DNA of 64,000 bases from a virus, in IMG/VR virus record IMGVR_UViG_3300043749_000038, positions 1 through 64,000 of that record; one strand, written 5' to 3'. The notes beneath the pieces are model-generated. The model saw nothing but the letters and a program-made list of their open reading frames with translations. It made no database searches and was not told the DNA's origin. The stretch's first letter is position 1. Each line of letters opens with the position of its first letter. This document shows positions 28,315-45,596 of this stretch, in pieces. The position numbers and the translations under genes are program-made.

Positions 28315-30363
28315 TTATTCAACAAGCTGTGGCGTAGACTGACCCACTTTTTCCAGAATGGAGTACGACTCGTTGATGTACCATTCATAGTCCAAGTCTT
28401 CAGGCATTCCGTTAGGCAGGTTCATGCAAGGAACGGCCCCGTCCGAGCGAGGGACTTTGTTGCCCGAATTTGCCATAACAATCTGACCGCTGGCTTGGGT
28501 CGAGTAATACCAGCGAACGGTCTTGCCAAGGAACTCGTAGCACTTCTCATCTTTCATGTAAACGCCACCGCCGCCCTTTGCCAGCTCGCGCATGGTTGTG
28601 AACATCGACACTTGGTCGCACGAGCGGATTGTGTGGGCAATAGACGTACCGTGCTCGAAGTAGTCCTTAATCGCCTTGACGCAAATCTCGTTGACCGCGT
28701 TCTTCATCGAAGAAGTCTTAGCGTACAGACCTTTGGTCTTGAACCAATTGCCTTTGTCAGGTTCAGTGTACGTTGCAATGTAGTTGTTCACGTCCTTTGC
28801 GAGATAGGACTTGTAACGGGTTTCTTCGGTTCCGAATCCTGTCTCCTTACCCCACTGCTTGACAATTGCGTCGAACTGTGCGCGCATGCTGCGCTTGCAA
28901 CGGACAACGACGCCGTCAGTGTTCGCGTTGATAACCTTAATGCCTGCAAGCTCGAAGCGCTCGATGAGCATCAGCAGGGACAGCTGACCCGTCAGCGTAA
29001 CTTGCATCATTAGGTTCGGTGCGTACATGACCGAGAACATGTTTGCCAGCTTTCCGAACGAGCCGTTAAGAACAATCTTTAAGCACTGCGCGGTGATAGG
29101 ATCTGTCTTCTTCGCCGCAATACGTGTCTCGTAAATCGTACGGTAGATCTTAAGAAAGATCTGCCCCATGTTGGTAGGGGTTAGACCCGCATTAAGGATC
29201 AGAGTCGGGTAATACGAAGTTGCGTCAGTGTCTGCAATAAAGTATTCGTCGTCCTCAACATATCCGACGTTGCTCTCTTTACTGTGCAAGCCTCCGATAC
29301 CGAATGCGTACTCACCATCTGCAATCTTTAATTTAAGACCGGTGAACTCTGGAGGGTTGAGGATGCCGCCCTCGTATGTGCCCACAACGTAATGCGCGTC
29401 CTGCACCAGCTTCAGCAGCGAGTTCAGGTACGGCGTTTGGAACTTAACAAAGCTCGGTGTCTTAAAGCGGTAGGTTGTTCCCTGCGCAATCTCCGCAGGC
29501 TTGATATACTTGTCACCAGTGAGACGAATGTACTCAGCTCTGATAATGGCTTCTGCCATCTGAGCGTCGGACTTTGAGCGCAAGTCCACGTCGTATCTTG
29601 CACCGAACTCCTCGCGCAAGCTAATGACGTCAAGCTTGGACGTGTAGACCAAGTGGGTGTTATCCAAGTCGTTCACGTTGTATCGCTTCAAGACCAGACA
29701 CTGCTCGAACGAAAGCACTGTACCGGGCTTGAATGGGAGGTCTTGCAGCTTAGGCGCGTGCAGGCGAGCAGCGCACTTCTTCAAGCCAGGGGCTTGAGCC
29801 GTGAGCTCGATAACGTCAATCTGCTCTATTTCAACCTTATTCTTTTTCTTGTAAGAGATCCCGTAGTGGCGGAGGACTTCGTAACCCTTGCAGCCCTCTT
29901 GAATAAGCATGCAGGTTGCTGCCCACATATCAGTGTGGTCATACAATTCCTGGCACGCTACCTGAGCAATGGTTTCGTCGAACTTAATGCCGTTGAAGGT
30001 AATTAGCGTGAAGTTCGCGAGAACCCACGCCAACTTCCGTCGATCGTAATCGTGCCCAAAGTCGCTGCTCTCGAAGAACAGGTGCTTGCCAGTTTCAATG
30101 TTCTTGAAACCGTGCAGACCGTAGTTCGGGTAGGATTCAACGTCGTAGATGAGCTTGTGCTTATTCTGCCAGGCAGCAATAAGCTCCATGTCGTTCATCT
30201 CGTTAAAGTTGAACGAACAGGCTTCTTCATACGCACCGGGCGGGATGAAGCCAGGTTCGAGCCAGTATTGGGCGGGCGGAGTTTTTTTGACTTTTTCTTT
30301 CTTGGGAGGCTTAACGGGTGCGATGTCCTCCCAAAATAAGCCTATCGAGTCGGCACGAGGCAT
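28315..30363 (-). CDS. Family B DNA polymerase
   Basis: 682 residues from ATG 30363 (TGATG overlap with the upstream stop). Exonuclease motifs: YDVESYPN near 73, FNGIKFDE near 123 and YNVNDLD near 230. Polymerase motifs: A, DTDATSYYP near 378; B, KIVLNGSFG near 429; C, NTDGV near 481, with Asn for the usual first Asp of DTD. The protein is short and divergent with no clear TPR insertions. It would be the replicative polymerase, working with the clamp encoded upstream. Confidence 0.9.
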   Translation of the reverse strand: MPRADSIGLFWEDIAPVKPPKKEKVKKTPPAQYWLEPGFIPPGAYEEACSFNFNEMNDMELIAAWQNKHKLIYDVESYPNYGLHGFKNIETGKHLFFESSDFGHDYDRRKLAWVLANFTLITFNGIKFDETIAQVACQELYDHTDMWAATCMLIQEGCKGYEVLRHYGISYKKKNKVEIEQIDVIELTAQAPGLKKCAARLHAPKLQDLPFKPGTVLSFEQCLVLKRYNVNDLDNTHLVYTSKLDVISLREEFGARYDVDLRSKSDAQMAEAIIRAEYIRLTGDKYIKPAEIAQGTTYRFKTPSFVKFQTPYLNSLLKLVQDAHYVVGTYEGGILNPPEFTGLKLKIADGEYAFGIGGLHSKESNVGYVEDDEYFIADTDATSYYPTLILNAGLTPTNMGQIFLKIYRTIYETRIAAKKTDPITAQCLKIVLNGSFGKLANMFSVMYAPNLMMQVTLTGQLSLLMLIERFELAGIKVINANTDGVVVRCKRSMRAQFDAIVKQWGKETGFGTEETRYKSYLAKDVNNYIATYTEPDKGNWFKTKGLYAKTSSMKNAVNEICVKAIKDYFEHGTSIAHTIRSCDQVSMFTTMRELAKGGGGVYMKDEKCYEFLGKTVRWYYSTQASGQIVMANSGNKVPRSDGAVPCMNLPNGMPEDLDYEWYINESYSILEKVGQSTPQLVE

Positions 30364-30728
30364 CACCAAACCTTTTCAAGCTGACGGGTTAAATCACGGA
30401 TGAGGTTTTTGTTACGGCTTAGTTTAGCACGTTCCAACTGTGCCAGCAAAGCTTGACGCTTGGGGCTTGGTTTGGACGGTGCAATTGGATCGCCAAAGCT
30501 TGTGAGCTCGTCGATGACCATCGAATCAACACCCACGCCAAACACCCTAGTTTGAGCAGGGTGCATGAGGATAACATGCACTCCAGCGGCCTGAGCAGCT
30601 TCCGCAGCGGCCCGCACTCTCCTACTCATTGTCAGGTCAGATGTGAGGATATAAATTTTTGGGTCGTTACCAAACGTAACTTTGTCACCGTCTTTTAAGA
30701 TGACTTCCTCTACGTTGATGTAGGCCAT
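30363..30728 (-). CDS. Hypothetical protein, 121 aa
   Basis: ATG overlaps the upstream stop (TGATG at 30730-30726). Contains a Rossmann-like pattern (KIYILTSDLTMSRRVRAAAEAAQAAGVHVILMHPAQ) and a C-terminal basic helix (ALLAQLERAKLSRNKNLIRDLTRQLEKVW). It lies between the clamp and polymerase genes, so a replication accessory role is possible, but no family is recognised. Confidence 0.65.
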   Translation of the reverse strand: MAYINVEEVILKDGDKVTFGNDPKIYILTSDLTMSRRVRAAAEAAQAAGVHVILMHPAQTRVFGVGVDSMVIDELTSFGDPIAPSKPSPKRQALLAQLERAKLSRNKNLIRDLTRQLEKVW

Positions 30729-31009
30729 CACCGTCCCGTCCTGTAAACACGTCCCGGAGGAGTACGCTTCGGTGGCGGAGAATTCCAAGCGCGTTTCCAT
30801 TCGTTAGACTGACCCCTGAATCCACGCACAAGATAAACAATCTCCGCCGTTTCACGCGCGCTATCACTCGGGTACGGCATGCAGTGAATGTTGAACTGAT
30901 GGATTACCGCGTTGCACCACTGCTCACGCGTCCAGGTTGGTTCAACTTTGACTTCAACACCCATCTGGTGCATGGTATGAAGCATCTTAACAACATTCAG
31001 TTTGATCAT
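30728..31009 (-). CDS. Hypothetical protein, 93 aa
   Basis: Start overlaps the clamp stop (ATGA at 31009-31006) and stop overlaps the next start. Basic C-terminus (NSPPPKRTPPGRVYRTGR). The N-terminal part looks alpha/beta (MLHTMHQMGVEVKVEPTW). No family recognised. Tight coupling places it in the replication operon. Confidence 0.65.
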   Translation of the reverse strand: MIKLNVVKMLHTMHQMGVEVKVEPTWTREQWCNAVIHQFNIHCMPYPSDSARETAEIVYLVRGFRGQSNEWKRAWNSPPPKRTPPGRVYRTGR

Positions 31010-31974
31010 TTCTTCATCCCGATAAGAACACCGCGCAATAAATTGTCTTCGCTAAGGAAGGCGCACGGACGCGGGTAGGTAGTCCAGTCCACCCTAGCCG
31101 CGAGACCCTCCAGCAACTTGAGATATTTGATGTTATACAGCCCTTCGTTGACCAGCCCAGGCACTTCGAACGAAGCTCCCTCGGACTCGTCATTGTGGGT
31201 AAACATCCGACCGCCGTTGAAATGCACGCTACCGAGTTGGTCGACAAACGGTGCAATGCTATCGATAGCTTCGAAAAATGTTTCCGGAATTTGTGTTGGG
31301 TTTGACGGTGCATTTAGCCGACTTGCTAGGTCCGGCCATTCGGTAAGGCTGTAAAGCTGCGTGCGGAGCCAGCGGTCGCCGGTGTAGTGGAAGGTAACAC
31401 TGCCCTCCGCAACCTGCGCGTACAGCGGGGCTTCCTTAACCCGCATCATTTCTTTGATCGCTGCGCCCGGAATGTTAATGGTGTGTGGGAAGTCAATCCC
31501 CAGCCAGTATTGCACCAGGCAAACGTTATTTGTCGCATAGAGCGATCGATCACGGACAAGGATGCCTTGCGCCCACTTCCGCGACGCGTCCTCACCGATG
31601 AACGGAGCAACACGCTTGACGCCTTCATAGAACTTTTCTCCATCAAATTGGACAATGGTGCCTTCCGGATGTACGTGAGGGGTGTCACCCTCGATGGACT
31701 CGATGTGCACTTTGAACGAACCGCTTTTGACGGTCAGCTTACCGCCCGGCGTCATGGACAGTTGTACGGTGTCCTTGCAGTTCGCAATTGCTTTGACCAG
31801 CTTTTCAGCTTTCGGCAAGCAAGCGATGTCAAACGGAATTGGGCTGCACAGTGCAATCGTGCCATTGAACCCGCGCACCTTACCATGCTCAATGCGGAAG
31901 TGCGTAAGCTCCGACACGAAGTCCTTACGGGCTACGCTGCCGGCAACGAACTTGAGGGATTCGAGGAGTGTCAT
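31006..31974 (-). CDS. DNA polymerase sliding clamp (beta-like)
   Basis: 322 residues. The start TLLESLKFVAGSVARKDFVSELTHFRIEHGKVRGFNGTIA is that of phage DnaN-like clamps: a helix, then a strand with a fold-defining G. Repeated domain boundaries show at KFYEGVKRVAPFIGEDASR and ETFFEAIDSIAPF, consistent with the three-domain clamp. It would tether the family B polymerase to DNA. Confidence 0.75.
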   Translation of the reverse strand: MTLLESLKFVAGSVARKDFVSELTHFRIEHGKVRGFNGTIALCSPIPFDIACLPKAEKLVKAIANCKDTVQLSMTPGGKLTVKSGSFKVHIESIEGDTPHVHPEGTIVQFDGEKFYEGVKRVAPFIGEDASRKWAQGILVRDRSLYATNNVCLVQYWLGIDFPHTINIPGAAIKEMMRVKEAPLYAQVAEGSVTFHYTGDRWLRTQLYSLTEWPDLASRLNAPSNPTQIPETFFEAIDSIAPFVDQLGSVHFNGGRMFTHNDESEGASFEVPGLVNEGLYNIKYLKLLEGLAARVDWTTYPRPCAFLSEDNLLRGVLIGMKK

Positions 31975-32201
31975 GGGAGTTTATTCCACGGTTTAATAGA
32001 CGCATCGCTGTACTTTGCATCGCGGAGCGGGCTGTAGCTAAGGTCGATAATGTGCACATCCCCCGCTATGGTGTGTACATAGCGTTCCTCTCTGTGCGTG
32101 ACAGGAATAAGCAACGGCATCCCACCGGGAATATTGGAGGGGCGAATCTCCTTAACTTGGCGCTTCTGCTTCTCGCCCTTAATGATCACTTCCATTAACA
32201 T
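31971..32201 (-). CDS. Hypothetical protein, 76 aa
   Basis: ATG overlaps the DpdA stop (TAATG) with AGGAG nine bases upstream. Basic N-terminus (EVIIKGEKQKRQVKEIRPSN) and a small beta pattern after it (HTIAGDVHIIDLSYSPL). No family recognised. Confidence 0.65.
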   Translation of the reverse strand: MLMEVIIKGEKQKRQVKEIRPSNIPGGMPLLIPVTHREERYVHTIAGDVHIIDLSYSPLRDAKYSDASIKPWNKLP

Positions 32202-33130
32202 TAGAAAAGCTCCTGTACTTTTAACACGTCAAAGTCGTTCTGTTTCTTTTCAAGACGTTTGTTAATCTGCTGGTTCACTTCCATGTAGCCCAAGATGTTA
32301 TACACAGCGCGGCTCTCGTAAATTGTACCAAGCCGCTGTACATCAAAGCCCTTACTATTTAGCATCCGTTCCACTGCTGCGCGCTCGATGTCGGTTAGTG
32401 TGGTTATATGCCTGCCCGCGTCGTGCTTGGCTGGAGAGTTTTCAGACACGGCAAGCGGCCCGTGCTCGCTCGTGTAAATGGAACCAAACGCTGCTGCTTG
32501 AATCCATGACGACGAGTCAACGCTGTACCATGGATACCGTTCCATTAACCACACAGCAGTCATACCGAACGCATGGACCTTGAGCTTGGGCCTGCCGGAA
32601 CCATCAAGCATAAGCGGCCAGATGCGGTCAAGCCATACGCGCTGACTTTCCGCGGTACGCCGAACGAGGCCTCCAATGGTGATGTAATCGTAATTTGCAA
32701 CGTACCATTCGAGGTAACGGACATCTTCGCCGTAGTGGAAGCAGGGGAGGGGTTTTGCATTTTGTGACTCCATGTACAGTTGGTTCCTGTAAGTTTGAAG
32801 TGGATCTCCAATGCCGTCAAGTACAGATGCCATAACGATTCCATCTTCCTTACGCAGGATATCCTCGTTGCGCTTGATGTAATCGCAGTAAGCGTTAATG
32901 TCAATACTTACACCGAGGGAGTGCGCGGAGAACGCACCTGAGTCCAGGAACACTTGCGCACCCTGCTCCCGCATGGTATCGACAAAGCGCTGTCCGTGGA
33001 CGTAGTGATATGATTCGAGTATATGAGGAATAGTAGGCGTGATTGCAGCCTCCACCTCGTTTAACTTTTCATAACGTTGTTGACCTTTCATGTATGAGTT
33101 GGTATAAACAGCCGCTAAGAATAGATTCAC
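32201..33130 (-). CDS. dpdA: DpdA-like 7-deazaguanine DNA transglycosylase
   Basis: 309 residues with the TIM-barrel pattern of tRNA-guanine transglycosylase relatives. FLDSGAFSAHSLG holds an Asp at 63 in the DSG(G/A)F substrate motif. KVHAFGMTA and YSVDSSSW carry the second Asp (205), the probable nucleophile. It lacks the tRNA-binding zinc domain. Phage DpdA enzymes swap guanine for preQ0 or a derivative in DNA. FolE, QueD, QueC and QueE genes lie directly upstream. GTG start (33130) with GAGGAG upstream. The symbol is given on family resemblance and context. Confidence 0.8.
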   Translation of the reverse strand: MNLFLAAVYTNSYMKGQQRYEKLNEVEAAITPTIPHILESYHYVHGQRFVDTMREQGAQVFLDSGAFSAHSLGVSIDINAYCDYIKRNEDILRKEDGIVMASVLDGIGDPLQTYRNQLYMESQNAKPLPCFHYGEDVRYLEWYVANYDYITIGGLVRRTAESQRVWLDRIWPLMLDGSGRPKLKVHAFGMTAVWLMERYPWYSVDSSSWIQAAAFGSIYTSEHGPLAVSENSPAKHDAGRHITTLTDIERAAVERMLNSKGFDVQRLGTIYESRAVYNILGYMEVNQQINKRLEKKQNDFDVLKVQELF

Positions 33131-33291
33131 AGGTTGTACTCCTCGCGTGCTGTGTTCGAAAGTCTTGTTAGGACCTCCTTTTCTTCTTTGGTGAACTCAA
33201 TCTGGAATCCACCGCTAACGTCGATGTAGTCAATACTTTCCGAGTCAATAATGCGAGCAATGTATTTTTTGAACAGAGCTTCGTAGTCCAC
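33127..33291 (-). CDS. Small acidic protein, 54 aa
   Basis: GTG 33291 has AAGGG eight bases upstream, whereas the in-frame ATG at 33369 lies inside a terminator hairpin. The sequence is charged and helical (FKKYIARIIDSESIDYIDVS, TKEEKEVLTRLSNTAREE). The stop overlaps the dpdA start. Confidence 0.6.
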   Translation of the reverse strand: MDYEALFKKYIARIIDSESIDYIDVSGGFQIEFTKEEKEVLTRLSNTAREEYNL

Positions 33292-33349
33292 AGTAACAAC
33301 CCTTGCGGTAAATGCGTACGCCGCTTGCGGTAGCGCACGGCAAAGCGTT

Positions 33350-33382
33350 AAAAATGGGGAGGTGCACACTGTACCCTCCCCA
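33350..33382 (-). terminator. Leftward intrinsic terminator
   Basis: TGGGGAGG (33355-33362) pairs with CCTCCCCA (33375-33382). On the minus strand the stem is followed by TTTTT (33350-33354). It would separate the queC-folE group from the dpdA-clamp-polymerase group or give partial read-through. The 33292-33406 gap has no gene. Confidence 0.7.
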
Positions 33383-33406
33383 CTAGCTGCGCAGCGTGCC
33401 GCGCGT

Positions 33407-33505
33407 TTAAATGCTTGGTGTCACAGCCAGTGCGCACACGAACAGCAGGCCGAGAAAGATGTAAGCTACAACACGTTCGAACTTCTTTTGATTACGGTTG
33501 CGCAT
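33407..33505 (-). CDS. Membrane microprotein, 32 aa
   Basis: Reads MRNRNQKKFERVVAYIF then LGLLFVCALAVTPSI: a basic head and a single hydrophobic helix, N-in by the positive-inside rule. A weak RBS (AGGT) precedes the ATG. It fills the gap between the 81-residue gene and the terminator. Confidence 0.5.
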   Translation of the reverse strand: MRNRNQKKFERVVAYIFLGLLFVCALAVTPSI

Positions 33506-33513
33506 GACGTTAC

Positions 33514-33759
33514 CTATGTTAAGTCAACAAGCAAGGCTACAACAGGGTGGCCTTCCCCACGGACCCAAAGCTGAACGCTCTTACCTTCATTCAAAGCTTT
33601 GAGCTCCTCCGGCGTTGGTTCCCATGCAGAGACCATAAATTTACCTTGGTCGGTCTCAACCTCCTTGACAGGAAGACCGGCGCAGCTTGAACCGTCGTCT
33701 TTCCAGTCAGATGGTGCGCCAAAGACCTTGGTAGCGTTTTCGATCCGGCGGACTAGCAT
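33514..33759 (-). CDS. Conserved phage hypothetical protein, 81 aa
   Basis: Pattern APSDWKDDGSSCAGLPVKEVE, then FMVSAWEPTPEELKALNEG and GHPVVALLV. I recognise this as a widespread small phage protein of unknown function (W-x-PTPEEL motif). Lies directly downstream of folE. Confidence 0.7.
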   Translation of the reverse strand: MLVRRIENATKVFGAPSDWKDDGSSCAGLPVKEVETDQGKFMVSAWEPTPEELKALNEGKSVQLWVRGEGHPVVALLVDLT

Positions 33760-33769
33760 AGCGCCGCCC

Positions 33770-34360
33770 CTACGCTTGGTTCAAGAAATCCGCGCGGCGA
33801 TCCGGGTCGGTGTACAGATAACCGCGCAGCGCCTTGGTGATGGTATGATGTCCTTGCTGACGCAGGCCGCGGTTTTCCATGCAGAAGTGTCGAGCGCGGA
33901 TGACCACACCTACCGCCTTCGGATTCAGGTGCTCGACCAGTGTGTCGGCAATCTGTGTGGTCAAACGTTCCTGCACTTGCAGCCGGCGCGCGAACGCGTC
34001 AGCCAGGCGGGACAGCTTGGACAGGCCGACGATCTTACCGTTCGGATGGTACGCGATGGTCGCGGTGCCGAAGATGGGCTCCAGGTGATGCTCGCACTGG
34101 CTGTAGATCGGGATGTCTTTGACGATCACAAGGTCGTTGTAACCCTCGGCGCCGTCTTCGAACACCTTCAGCAGCGACGGGATGTCAACACCGTAACCGG
34201 AGGTCTTTTCGGCCCAGGCCTTAACGACTCGGTGGGGGGTTTCCAGAAGGCCGGGGCGAGGCTCCTCGCCAATAACAAGCGAGATCAGTTGCCGGATCAC
34301 GTTGCGCTTTTGTTGCTGGATTTCTTCGTTGGTGCCTTGCGGCAGGAGTTCGTATTGCAT
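33770..34360 (-). CDS. folE: GTP cyclohydrolase I
   Basis: 196 residues from ATG 34360, four bases after the QueD stop. Converts GTP to dihydroneopterin triphosphate, the first step to preQ0. Zinc and catalytic signature IYSQCEHHLEPIFGTATIAY, then GKIVGLSKLSRLADAFARRLQVQERLTTQIAD and a later CMENRG cysteine (third zinc ligand). All expected residues are present. Confidence 0.95.
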   Translation of the reverse strand: MQYELLPQGTNEEIQQQKRNVIRQLISLVIGEEPRPGLLETPHRVVKAWAEKTSGYGVDIPSLLKVFEDGAEGYNDLVIVKDIPIYSQCEHHLEPIFGTATIAYHPNGKIVGLSKLSRLADAFARRLQVQERLTTQIADTLVEHLNPKAVGVVIRARHFCMENRGLRQQGHHTITKALRGYLYTDPDRRADFLNQA

Positions 34361-34361
34361 G

Positions 34362-34838
34362 TTATTTTCCAAAAAAGGTTGCAGAGTTGGCACCATGCTC
34401 GGAGCATTTAACCGAGGCGACGCGTACGCGATGGAAACGGCCGCCGGACGCATGCTTTCCGTTCAGCTCCCGCACGAGCAGAGCGACTTCGTTGTAGACT
34501 TCTTCTGCGAACGATTCGCAGCCTACGCGGGGTACAACCCTGAGGTCGATGATCTTCTGGTCGTGCAACACGCGGAAGGCGTCCAGTGCTGGATCGTCCT
34601 TGGCAATGACGGTCTTGTGGTCGAACATCTCGCCAAGCCTGGAGCGCAGCGATTTAAGACCGCCGAAATCGATAAGCCAGTTGCGGCCGTCCAGCGTGTT
34701 GGATTCGAAGACGATCTCGAATGCCAAGCTGTAACCGTGCAGCATCGAGCAGTGCGAGTGCGTCGCTTTGTGCTGCCGGAAACAGCAGGACAATCCGAGG
34801 TTGTGGTCATAGACCTTTGTTACTTGGTAGCTGGACAC
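34362..34838 (-). CDS. queD: 6-carboxytetrahydropterin synthase
   Basis: 158 residues, GTG start. Second step to preQ0. CCFRQHKATHSHCSMLHGYS has the zinc histidines and the expected Cys; the last His of the usual HGH is Tyr (HGY). LIDFGGLKSLRSRLGEMFDHK and the C-terminal KCSEHGANSATF follow family pattern. The start overlaps the end of the coiled-coil gene upstream. Confidence 0.9.
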   Translation of the reverse strand: MSSYQVTKVYDHNLGLSCCFRQHKATHSHCSMLHGYSLAFEIVFESNTLDGRNWLIDFGGLKSLRSRLGEMFDHKTVIAKDDPALDAFRVLHDQKIIDLRVVPRVGCESFAEEVYNEVALLVRELNGKHASGGRFHRVRVASVKCSEHGANSATFFGK

Positions 34839-35005
34839 AGGTGCACCATCTTTCGCAGTTGTTCGACTTGGTCTTTCAGATCCGTATTTTCCTGAAGCAG
34901 CTTAGCTTCACGCGCAAGAACTTCGTCGAGTTTCTTACACTTTTCACCGTACTGCTGTTCCAGATTGCGGAGGGCTTTGTGGGCCGGGATGGGTTTAGCA
35001 GCCAT
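34820..35005 (-). CDS. Small coiled-coil protein, 61 aa
   Basis: Nearly all helix with heptad pattern (HKALRNLEQQYGEKCKKLDEVLAREAKLLQENTDLKDQVEQLRKM). It overlaps the queC stop at its start and the queD start at its end, so it is co-translated with the preQ0 genes. Function unknown; it may be a scaffold for enzymes. Confidence 0.65.
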   Translation of the reverse strand: MAAKPIPAHKALRNLEQQYGEKCKKLDEVLAREAKLLQENTDLKDQVEQLRKMVHLCPATK

Positions 35006-35982
35006 TATTCGTCACCGCTTGGTTGCTGGTAGGCTGGATTTTCAGCCATGGCGCGATCGTGCTCGGCCGCCGTGTCCAGCGAGCGTTGATCGCCGCAGCA
35101 CAGATCCATACAGACGTTGGCGTAGTTCGGGGTTTCCGGCAGCTTCATCAGCCCTTCACGTGCTGCACGCACGACCAGCGGGTCCGGCACGCCGGCCTCT
35201 TCGAAGCCCTTGGCGCGCAGCAGGGTAGCATGGTCCTTGCCGACCGGCGGATAGGCGCCGTCGTACGATGTGTGGGAATATGCCAGAGCTTCCATGCATC
35301 CCGGGATCGCCTGCGCCAGACGCACACTGTCCGCTTTGGTAAGGTACATGAGCGGGGTAAGGATGCGCAGTGGTCGCAGCGTACCCGGCTCGCCGGTGAA
35401 CGTACCGTAGTTGATCGCGTCTTGCAGAGCACTGATGAACGTTGCACGGCAGTCCGGATAGCCGCCGCTGTCTTCCTGGCACACACCGGTGATCAGCACG
35501 TTGCAGCCCAGGACGTAAGCGCGGTTTGCAGCCAGCGTCAGGAACAGTTGGTTGCGCATCGGAACGAAGGTCTTTTCCAGACCGCCAGGCAGGGACTGAT
35601 GGTCCGCGTACTGCTCGAGGACTTCGTCCGGATTGGTCAGCGGCGACGTGCCGGCCAGGATAGGACCGACGGTTGTCAGGAACTGCTTGCTCGGGTGCAC
35701 GCCGACCATGCGAGCGATGATACCTGCGGACTCGATCTCGGTCGCATGTTTCTGACCGTAATCGAAGGTGATAGTGTGGACGTCGTAACCCTGCTGCTTG
35801 GCCCAGAACAGGCAAGTGGTGGAGTCTTGTCCGCCGGACAAGACCACTAGAGCTTTTTGCTTGAGCATATCTTTAACCTTCCTTTTCTCGTAAAATTGGA
35901 AATCGCAGCAATCGCATTTCTTTGTAGCAGAATAAGCGAACGCGTAGCATTTAGGGCACACCTTTAGCGGTGCGTCACCCAT
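35005..35982 (-). CDS. queC: preQ0 synthase with N-terminal zinc ribbon
   Basis: The PP-loop motif VVLSGGQDSTTCLFWAK and FDYGQKHATEIESA identify QueC, which makes preQ0 from 7-carboxy-7-deazaguanine. ATG 35982 follows the upstream stop by one base and gives 325 residues with an extra N-terminal ribbon (VCPKCYAFAY, KKCDCCDF). A second start at 35868 with GGAAGG upstream gives a normal 287-residue QueC. The usual C-terminal four-Cys zinc site is altered (NVCMDLCCGD). Both forms may be made. Confidence 0.9.
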   Translation of the reverse strand: MGDAPLKVCPKCYAFAYSATKKCDCCDFQFYEKRKVKDMLKQKALVVLSGGQDSTTCLFWAKQQGYDVHTITFDYGQKHATEIESAGIIARMVGVHPSKQFLTTVGPILAGTSPLTNPDEVLEQYADHQSLPGGLEKTFVPMRNQLFLTLAANRAYVLGCNVLITGVCQEDSGGYPDCRATFISALQDAINYGTFTGEPGTLRPLRILTPLMYLTKADSVRLAQAIPGCMEALAYSHTSYDGAYPPVGKDHATLLRAKGFEEAGVPDPLVVRAAREGLMKLPETPNYANVCMDLCCGDQRSLDTAAEHDRAMAENPAYQQPSGDE

Positions 35983-35983
35983 G

Positions 35984-36199
35984 TTATTCCCCATTTTTGA
36001 AATAGTCGACTTGAACTTCTTTACCCATGCGAACAATGCAGCCCAGCATGAGAAGGATCCAGAACGCAGCAACGGCGCCCCACACCCAGCCGGAGGGCTG
36101 AAACTTGTCCAGCAGCAGGTAGAAGACGATGCCCCAGCCGATCGGCAGACGGGTAGGCAGGTTACTTGGCGCGAGGACGCGCGGATTCTTTTTGGACAT
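35984..36199 (-). CDS. Two-helix membrane protein, 71 aa
   Basis: Basic N-terminus, then two hydrophobic segments (IGWGIVFYLLLDKF and GWVWGAVAAFWILLMLGCIVRMG). Unknown function. Its stop is one base from the queC start. A membrane protein inside the preQ0 operon is unexpected. Confidence 0.65.
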   Translation of the reverse strand: MSKKNPRVLAPSNLPTRLPIGWGIVFYLLLDKFQPSGWVWGAVAAFWILLMLGCIVRMGKEVQVDYFKNGE

Positions 36200-36202
36200 T
36201 TG

Positions 36203-36385
36203 TTAGACCTTTGCTTTCTGGATTGCGGTGAAGATTGCTTCGCGAAGTTGAGATTCGATCAGCGGTTCATCCTTACGAACAGGATTCTGCACCATCGATT
36301 GCAAAGCAGCTAATTCAGCAGCGTCGCAAGCAATGGTAAAGTGATAAACCGTTTTCATGGATACGTTAACGTGTGCAATTGCCAT
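36203..36385 (-). CDS. Hypothetical protein, 60 aa
   Basis: ATG 36385 overlaps the queE stop (TGATG) with GGGGTGGAG upstream. An internal ATG at 36358 is also possible. Helical, with DAAELAALQSMV and LIESQLREAIFTAIQKAKV. No family recognised. Confidence 0.6.
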   Translation of the reverse strand: MAIAHVNVSMKTVYHFTIACDAAELAALQSMVQNPVRKDEPLIESQLREAIFTAIQKAKV

Positions 36386-37104
36386 CACTCCACCCCGAGG
36401 TATTTGTGGGTCTGAAGCTGGAGGGTGTAACCGAAGCGCAAGCAGCTATCGACAACCGCTTTAATGTTCTTAGCGTTAGTTGCTTCGTCCTTGGAGTCCA
36501 TCGGCTGGAGATAGACGGGCTTGCCACCATGTCGAGCAACCTGCGGCGCCGCAGTGTGGTTAAGCGCAAGGATAGGAAGGCCGTCGTTCGGATTCACGCT
36601 GTCGTGAGACAGGACGTACTTGAAGCACTTTGCGCGCGAACGAATCCATTCTTGCACCTTGCCGGCCTTGGGGCTGCAAACGATGTGGATTTGTTCCCAC
36701 ACTGGATGGTCTTGCGTGCCGGGCCCGGGAGCAAGCGTGCCGTTCGTTTCGATTTGCACGGTGTATTCGTGCTTTACCAGCAGTGCGCACAGTAAAAGCA
36801 AGCTTTGACGGAAGGGTTCACCGCCGGTAATGACGATGAGCGGTTTACGATGGGACCGTGTGGACTGCGTCTTGATTGAGTCCAAGATGGATTCCACATT
36901 CATCACAAGACGACCCTTCGTGTACTCCGTGTCGCAGGACGGGCATTGCAAGTTGCAACCCGCAAGGCGCACGAATACAGCAGGGCGTCCGGTGAACGGA
37001 CCCTCACCCTGAATTGTATAGAAGATGGAATGGACGTCGAGGACGGAACCGTCCGACTTGACCGACTTTTCAATCGGTTGGGTGTTGATTGGGATAACTT
37101 GCAT
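36385..37104 (-). CDS. queE: 7-carboxy-7-deazaguanine synthase
   Basis: Radical SAM enzyme, 239 residues. FYTIQGEGPFTGRPAVFVRLAGCNLQCPSCDTEY contains the Cx3Cx2C cluster motif (C-NLQ-C-PS-C). PLIVITGGEPFRQ gives the GGE SAM-binding motif, and YLQPMD near the C-terminus is conserved. Third step to preQ0. First gene of the folE-queD-queC-queE group and directly downstream of the tRNA gene. Confidence 0.95.
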   Translation of the reverse strand: MQVIPINTQPIEKSVKSDGSVLDVHSIFYTIQGEGPFTGRPAVFVRLAGCNLQCPSCDTEYTKGRLVMNVESILDSIKTQSTRSHRKPLIVITGGEPFRQSLLLLCALLVKHEYTVQIETNGTLAPGPGTQDHPVWEQIHIVCSPKAGKVQEWIRSRAKCFKYVLSHDSVNPNDGLPILALNHTAAPQVARHGGKPVYLQPMDSKDEATNAKNIKAVVDSCLRFGYTLQLQTHKYLGVE

Positions 37105-37145: not shown

Positions 37146-37233
37146 TGGCGGAAAGTGTAGGATTCGAACCTACGGAGCCTTTCGACTCGTCTGGTTAGCA
37201 ACCAGATGCATTAAACCACTCTGCCAACTTTCC
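37146..37233 (-). tRNA. tRNA-Ser (anticodon GCU)
   Basis: Read on the minus strand: 7-bp acceptor GGAAAGT/ACTTTCC, D arm, anticodon stem TCTGG/CCAGA with loop TTGCTAA (anticodon GCT), long variable arm of the class II type, T arm with GTTCGAATC, discriminator G and encoded CCA. A complete, probably functional tRNA for AGC/AGU codons. The 37234-37349 gap to the next gene holds short GC-rich hairpins and no gene. Confidence 0.95.
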
Positions 37234-41608: not shown

Positions 41609-41701
41609 ATTTATAGACGAACTTTAGAGGGACTCGAACCCTAGCACTTGCCGATTGCCTCGGCCGTTCTGCCAATTAAACTATAAAGTTCGTCTATAAA
41701 T
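41609..41701 (-). tRNA. tRNA-like element with abnormal anticodon arm
   Basis: On the minus strand it has an AACTTTA/TAAAGTT acceptor, T8-A9, a D arm (GTTTAATTGGCAGAAC), and a T arm with GGGTTCGAGTCCC. The anticodon region folds best as GCCGA/TCGGC with only a 5-nt loop (GGCAA); a 7-nt loop AGGCAAT would read GCA (Cys) but lacks U33. No CCA is encoded. The acceptor continues into an 18-bp perfect inverted repeat (41609-41626 with 41684-41701). It may be a degenerate t RNA gene or a structured RNA. Confidence 0.5.
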
Positions 41702-45012: not shown

Positions 45013-45596
45013 TATTGGTTCTCCAGTTCGATATCGCAATTCTCGCAAACGACGTGCGAACAACCAACCCCACCCACTTCGACGAACTTGTGTTGCTTGC
45101 ACGGGATGTTGAGATAGTTCCGCCACTTAACCTTTACACCGTTGACCAGAAAGCCCCACGTCCCACGATAGCGGTAGGTGATGAATAAGGTCCAGACACC
45201 ACCGCTGCTCACCTGCGTGATTTTGTGGTAGTCGCCGAAGTTAATCGAAGCGGTGTCGCCAGCTTTCCGACGCGTGGAAGCGTAGCCCAGTGGTTCTGGA
45301 CGTCGCTCCTCGTACCAGCCACGCAAAATGATCGTACGCGCGTCCCAAGGATGGTCGTGCATGTGCTCGTCGCGATCTTCGCGCAGTATGTGGTGAAGAC
45401 GCACAGATGGGAAGAAGCGGCACCAGCCTTTCTTTTGGTCCGGTGCGCTTTTCGGGTATGGGTTGAACAGCCAGTAGCGGTTCATATAACCCTCGAGATG
45501 GCTGTACGGCGCCTTCATCGCACGTTTGATCAGCCAGCCCGTTACAGCAGGGCGTGCAAGCACCTTGGCTAGAAGCTTCCAGAACAGGCTCTTCAT
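45012..45596 (-). CDS. Cupin-fold phage protein
   Basis: 194 residues. RLHHILREDRDEHMHDHPWDARTIILRGWYEE is the known HDHPW-type cupin strand pair with metal-binding histidines. HKFVEVG near the C-terminus supplies the second cupin motif. It ends with HVVCENCDIE, a CxxC pair. Function unknown in phages; possibly a small-molecule dioxygenase or isomerase. Confidence 0.7.
   Translation of the reverse strand: MKSLFWKLLAKVLARPAVTGWLIKRAMKAPYSHLEGYMNRYWLFNPYPKSAPDQKKGWCRFFPSVRLHHILREDRDEHMHDHPWDARTIILRGWYEERRPEPLGYASTRRKAGDTASINFGDYHKITQVSSGGVWTLFITYRYRGTWGFLVNGVKVKWRNYLNIPCKQHKFVEVGGVGCSHVVCENCDIELENQ

Follow-up and report, generated by a model that had tools for sequence, protein, structure and literature searches.

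A predicted 2'-deoxy-preQ0 modification cluster in a Queuovirinae-like phage and its QueC lineage lacking the zinc site

The tailed phage genome in IMG/VR record IMGVR_UViG_3300043749_000038 probably belongs to a Queuovirinae-like phage that makes preQ0 de novo, inserts it into its DNA through DpdA and gains protection, with a QueC that is active without its zinc site. Positions 1-64000 of the 69,071-base virus record, referred to here as the window, were analysed. In the proposed route, FolE would convert GTP to H2NTP, QueD would convert H2NTP to CPH4 and QueE would turn CPH4 into CDG, from which QueC would form preQ0 with ATP and ammonia. DpdA would swap selected guanines in the phage DNA for preQ0, giving 2'-deoxy-7-cyano-7-deazaguanosine, and the modified DNA would be protected against host restriction. 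In this respect the DNA-modification cluster is one more instance of a known phage strategy, in which guanine is swapped and the DNA hides from bacterial defences. Its QueC belongs to a phage lineage without the zinc site, which would complete nitrile formation with the ATP loop and CDG pocket that it keeps.

Profile matches place queE, queC, queD, folE and dpdA in one tightly packed minus-strand block (Table 1), as the initial annotation had proposed; each family match is highly significant, all five frames are intact and the gaps are mostly a few bases or small overlaps. The genes for the sliding clamp and the DNA polymerase follow on from the block, in a genome where terminase, portal and capsid genes are read rightward and replication genes leftward. 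The same gene order is annotated in the Queuovirinae-type phages CAjan, NP1, Iggy and Acinetobacter phage HD01. Because of the match statistics and the order common to relatives, chance is excluded for the five-gene block. A tRNA-Ser(GCT) (window 37146-37233) lies directly upstream of queE, and a tRNA-Cys(GCA) is found at window 41618-41691. A conserved tRNA-Ser beside queE was considered and rejected, being absent from the relatives scanned, and the tRNA-Cys is likewise not conserved. The replication region also encodes a cysteine dioxygenase-like protein (phrog_4786; window 45015-45596).

Table 1. Features of the preQ0/DpdA block and the adjoining replication genes (window coordinates).
Feature	Position	Strand	Evidence
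QueE, 7-carboxy-7-deazaguanine synthase (radical SAM)	36385..37104	-	phrog_2076 2e-59; C50/C54/C57
Small ORF, 61 aa, match without function	36203..36388	-	phrog_7471
Small hydrophobic protein, 71 aa, probably membrane (judged by eye)	35984..36199	-	weak relatives in L005, L018, L023
QueC, 325 aa: 38-aa four-cysteine N-terminal extension and zinc-less core	35005..35982	-	PF06508 6.5e-54; TIGR00364 above cut-off
Small ORF, 61 aa	34820..35005	-	open frame; one weak relative
QueD, 6-carboxytetrahydropterin synthase, divergent 'SHC..LHGY' type	34362..34838	-	PF01242 1.4e-12; phrog_2389 8.8e-37
FolE, GTP cyclohydrolase I	33770..34360	-	PF01227 3e-61; C89/H92/C160
Small ORF, 81 aa	33514..33759	-	phrog_34105; 67% relative in L020
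Possible 32-aa membrane peptide between folE and dpdA	33407..33505	-	read from sequence
Small ORF ahead of dpdA	33127..33369	-	phrog_21984 match
DpdA, DNA-guanine transglycosylase (9g/CAjan group)	32201..33130	-	phrog_887 1.8e-79; 63% to CAjan DpdA
Small ORF after dpdA	31971..32201	-	open frame
DNA polymerase processivity factor (sliding clamp)	31006..31974	-	phrog_947 3.2e-73; position as in CAjan and Iggy
DNA polymerase	28315..30369	-	phrog_1252 9.5e-179; position as in CAjan and Iggy

With regard to DpdA and the preQ0 genes, the content corresponds to group 2 of the phage dPreQ0 systems (Hutinet 2019): a DpdA homologue (phrog_887, 1.8e-79) occurs together with FolE, QueD, QueE and QueC, with QueD scoring below the TIGR03367 cut-off, and the complete pathway that had been proposed earlier is present, its core genes and their order being those of CAjan. 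In CAjan, which combines DpdA with all four preQ0 genes and lacks an amidotransferase, dPreQ0 amounts to 70,628 per million nucleotides (about 32% of G) and disappears when dpdA is deleted; in phage 9g, dG+ is made through Gat-QueC (PMC6884629). The reported lack of QueF and of an amidotransferase-fused QueC in the window also holds. Profile searches detect no amidotransferase domain in QueC, and a QueF search covering all 69,071 bases of the record hit only FolE, which shares the T-fold with QueF, so that a QueF in the phage genome was rejected. QueC without an amidotransferase domain and the absence of QueF therefore make dPreQ0 the first prediction; as judged from the genes, the window phage DNA most likely carries 2'-deoxy-preQ0, in a system of known kind. 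Iggy is likewise reported to carry dPreQ0 (PMC11008142, citing Olsen 2023). The initial call of 7-cyano-7-deazaguanine agrees with the precedents of CAjan and Iggy, but it presupposed an ordinary QueC, and the zinc site of this QueC is lost. For this reason the preQ0 call needed separate support, which comes from QueF co-occurrence and from Brackiella.

The DNA target is indicated by the transglycosylase. The window DpdA is full-length, its 63% identity to CAjan DpdA extends over its whole length, and it matches 228 phage records. D63, D105, H186 and D205 reach at least 97% conservation in an alignment of 55 proteins; both the conserved Asp residues and the His that DpdA2 lacks are present, assigning the protein to phage DpdA (9g group) rather than DpdA2, and H186 presumably corresponds to His196 of 9g. 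It is extremely unlikely that the block instead boosts queuosine in host tRNA, even if the preQ0 pathway feeds queuosine and some phages carry the pathway without DpdA (PMC6884629). The window transglycosylase falls in the phage DpdA family, with no Pfam TGT match, no match by sequence to a solved TGT and no convincing sequence match in the PDB; furthermore, dpdA lies near the clamp and polymerase genes, and 9g DpdA fails to complement tgt (PMC6884629).

The small frames at 34820, 35984, 36203, 33407, 33514 and 31971 are all present as open frames. They had been put forward as partners of DpdA that choose the sequence context or load the enzyme, a suggestion that finds no support from sequence comparison. 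Among relatives with the same core they are poorly conserved: the frame at 35984 has counterparts at 44-46% in three loci, that at 33514 at 67% in one locus and that at 34820 at 35% in one locus, and the other small genes have no detectable counterparts there. Moreover, 9g DpdA modifies plasmid DNA in E. coli with Gat-QueC as its only added partner (PMC6884629).

Zinc binding counts as a hallmark of the QueC family. According to a 2026 study, which names the zinc motif as such a trait, QueC needs ATP as well as zinc (PMC13329287); this is why a zinc-less lineage matters. An alignment of the window QueC to CAjan QueC and to the solved proteins of B. subtilis and Erwinia shows that the motif C(x)8CxxCxxC is gone; its four Cys positions are occupied by S239, V247, D250 and T253, and the cysteines are also lost in relatives of the same type. 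The other motifs of canonical QueC (cluster 1 of PF06508), namely SGGxDS, YxQxHxxE, VPxRN and YPDC (PMC13329287), are kept as SGGQDS, YGQKHATE, VPMRN and YPDC, mostly invariant or nearly so in alignment A1, and Y240 appears to correspond to the essential Y189 of E. coli. Across the window QueC and 59 viral relatives, H237, T238, Y240, D241, G242, Y244, P245, P246, H251, L255 and R256 are invariant. Since these 11 positions are invariant, the zinc region is conserved in a new form rather than decayed. In the AlphaFold model, pLDDT is mostly above 90 in the core, and among solved structures QueC 3BL5 matches the model best (TM 0.85 by target length), with Cap9 behind it.

Translation of QueC most likely begins at 35982, a single base past the stop of the preceding frame; an internal ATG at 35868 is a possible alternative. 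The first start yields an N-terminal extension of 38 residues (window 35869-35982) with CPKC and CDCC motifs, which begins one base past the upstream stop and scores as coding in this frame only. The four-cysteine extension is absent from every QueC relative examined, and AlphaFold confidence for it is low. That it might replace the lost zinc site is speculation. An origin by fusion of a zinc ribbon encoded by small genes upstream of queC in relatives was rejected, as the in-frame four-cysteine stretch occurs only in the window. By eye, the extension looks like the Cys-rich C-terminal part of the phage helicase (38963-40699).

QueD is altered as well: SCCF and LHGY stand in place of AAH and HGH, so that two of the three canonical zinc histidines are replaced. 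The His and Cys of 'SHC' form a new pair that is invariant in 41 aligned proteins, as are C30, H74 and E147, presumably the catalytic Cys, His and Glu. The QueD model (pLDDT 93) has a QueD-like T-fold and matches E. coli QueD (4NTK). The iron-sulfur CxxxCxxC of QueE (C50, C54, C57) and the expected FolE zinc ligands C89, H92 and C160 show conservation of at least 97% among relatives. For FolE, the most likely start is 34360, a single base beyond the stop of queD, and not 34453. Divergent QueD matches 103 phage records in tblastn, all below 60% identity. It accompanies zinc-less QueC in 78 loci (a redundant count), canonical QueD occurs in 49 zinc-less-QueC loci and three loci combine divergent QueD with canonical QueC; with 49 plus three loci of mixed type, the QueC and QueD changes are not strictly linked. 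Altered zinc ligands in both enzymes would be expected of a non-functional pathway that leaves the DNA unmodified, which is very unlikely here: the five frames are intact and tightly packed, and the same alterations are kept in dozens of divergent relatives, as expected under purifying selection.

Whether the zinc-less QueC makes preQ0 can be approached through its gene neighbours. QueF reduces preQ0, its substrate, and 37 loci (some overlapping and not all independent) combine zinc-less QueC with a separate QueF. The isolates Pan1 and R5C are among the phages with this pairing; each has a QueF with CPKTGQPD and CVESKS motifs and, by tblastn, a single QueC place. Iggy QueC is of the zinc-less type, and the Iggy host is expected to make preQ0 itself. 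As the host could supply preQ0, the dPreQ0 of Iggy is by itself no proof for the phage QueC. In Brackiella oedipodis DSM 13743 the queuosine gene set is nearly complete (QueD, QueE, QueF, TGT and QueA), and a zinc-less, phage-type QueC is the only strong PF06508 match there (L049 4510-5346). This QueC lies between phosphate-transport genes and a flavin oxidoreductase with no evident prophage, and the cysteines are present in the QueC loci retrieved for further members of its bacterial family. Brackiella could be salvaging preQ0 instead.

It is unlikely that the zinc-less QueC has changed its reaction, either stopping at the amide (ADG) or removing the carboxyl (7-deazaguanine), with dADG or dDG in the DNA and no dPreQ0. 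Such changes have parallels: QatC and Cap9, enzymes of the QueC fold, switched reaction before, and Cui et al. in 2023 reportedly added further bases and new enzymes, including a CDG decarboxylase and dDG. All four hallmark zinc cysteines (PMC13329287) are, besides, replaced in a coherent and nearly phage-only family. Against this stand QueF co-occurrence, the Brackiella queuosine gene set, the report of dPreQ0 in Iggy and the kept substrate motifs; on the first three of these, CDG decarboxylation was set aside as unlikely. QueF co-occurrence, Brackiella and Iggy suggest, as the simplest reading, that the zinc-less QueC kept its preQ0 reaction. The zinc site is probably dispensable, in that a phage-associated QueC lineage would make preQ0 without the hallmark site and serve as the sole QueC of one bacterium's queuosine pathway; in the window phage, its function may have passed to the new four-cysteine extension.

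At least 119 viral contigs contain the new-motif DNA pattern, against 6 of 84,980 cellular species, and the zinc-less type is found in 43 annotated phage records, compared with 316 records with any QueC match. Hosts of these phages include Rhizobium, Pseudomonas, Stenotrophomonas, Dinoroseobacter, Sphingomonas, Acinetobacter, Edwardsiella and cyanobacteria. In the all-column tree, a branch with SH-aLRT 94 sets the zinc-less type apart. Once the motif columns are removed, the grouping persists, with the cysteine-bearing viral L043 (a long branch) inside it and Brackiella shifted to the base. Because of these two placements, the trees fix neither how often the site was lost nor which way the gene was transferred; a single loss of the QueC zinc site is plausible, not proved. 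In Sinorhizobium psoraleae (L048/L213), a zinc-less QueC lies near QueF and QueD, possibly in a prophage, and a cysteine-bearing QueC is encoded elsewhere. No description of the zinc-less lineage was found in the limited literature searched, and priority is uncertain. A large natural family without the zinc site, beside QueF and in a queuosine gene set, offers a direct test of the role of zinc. It also calls for caution, as the Cys motif is unsafe for annotating phage QueC or predicting the modified base.

Among known systems, CAjan (Seuratvirus, Queuovirinae) shares the order of FolE, QueD, QueE, QueC and DpdA, the adjoining clamp and polymerase genes, and the closely related DpdA. Its QueC has the zinc cysteines and its QueD the canonical AGH/HGH ligands, whereas those of the window have neither, and its putative preQ0 transporter has no counterpart seen in the window block. 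The Pseudomonas phage Iggy (Iggyvirus) has the zinc-less QueC, the divergent QueD and the gene order in common with the window, and is reported to carry dPreQ0; its QueC, about 51% identical, lacks the N-terminal four-cysteine extension and carries a different long C-terminal tail. Phages 9g and NP1 have the same DpdA family and preQ0 pathway, but their QueC is fused to an amidotransferase (dG+ in 9g), in contrast to the unfused window protein. Pseudanabaena phage Pan1 and Dinoroseobacter phage R5C share zinc-less QueC, QueD, FolE and a TGT/DpdA-like gene and add QueF and a distant transglycosylase, so that a reduced base is expected there, unlike in the window phage. Compared with canonical bacterial QueC (B. 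subtilis 3BL5, E. coli), the window QueC has the same fold, ATP loop and CDG-pocket motifs and differs in the absence of the zinc cysteines.
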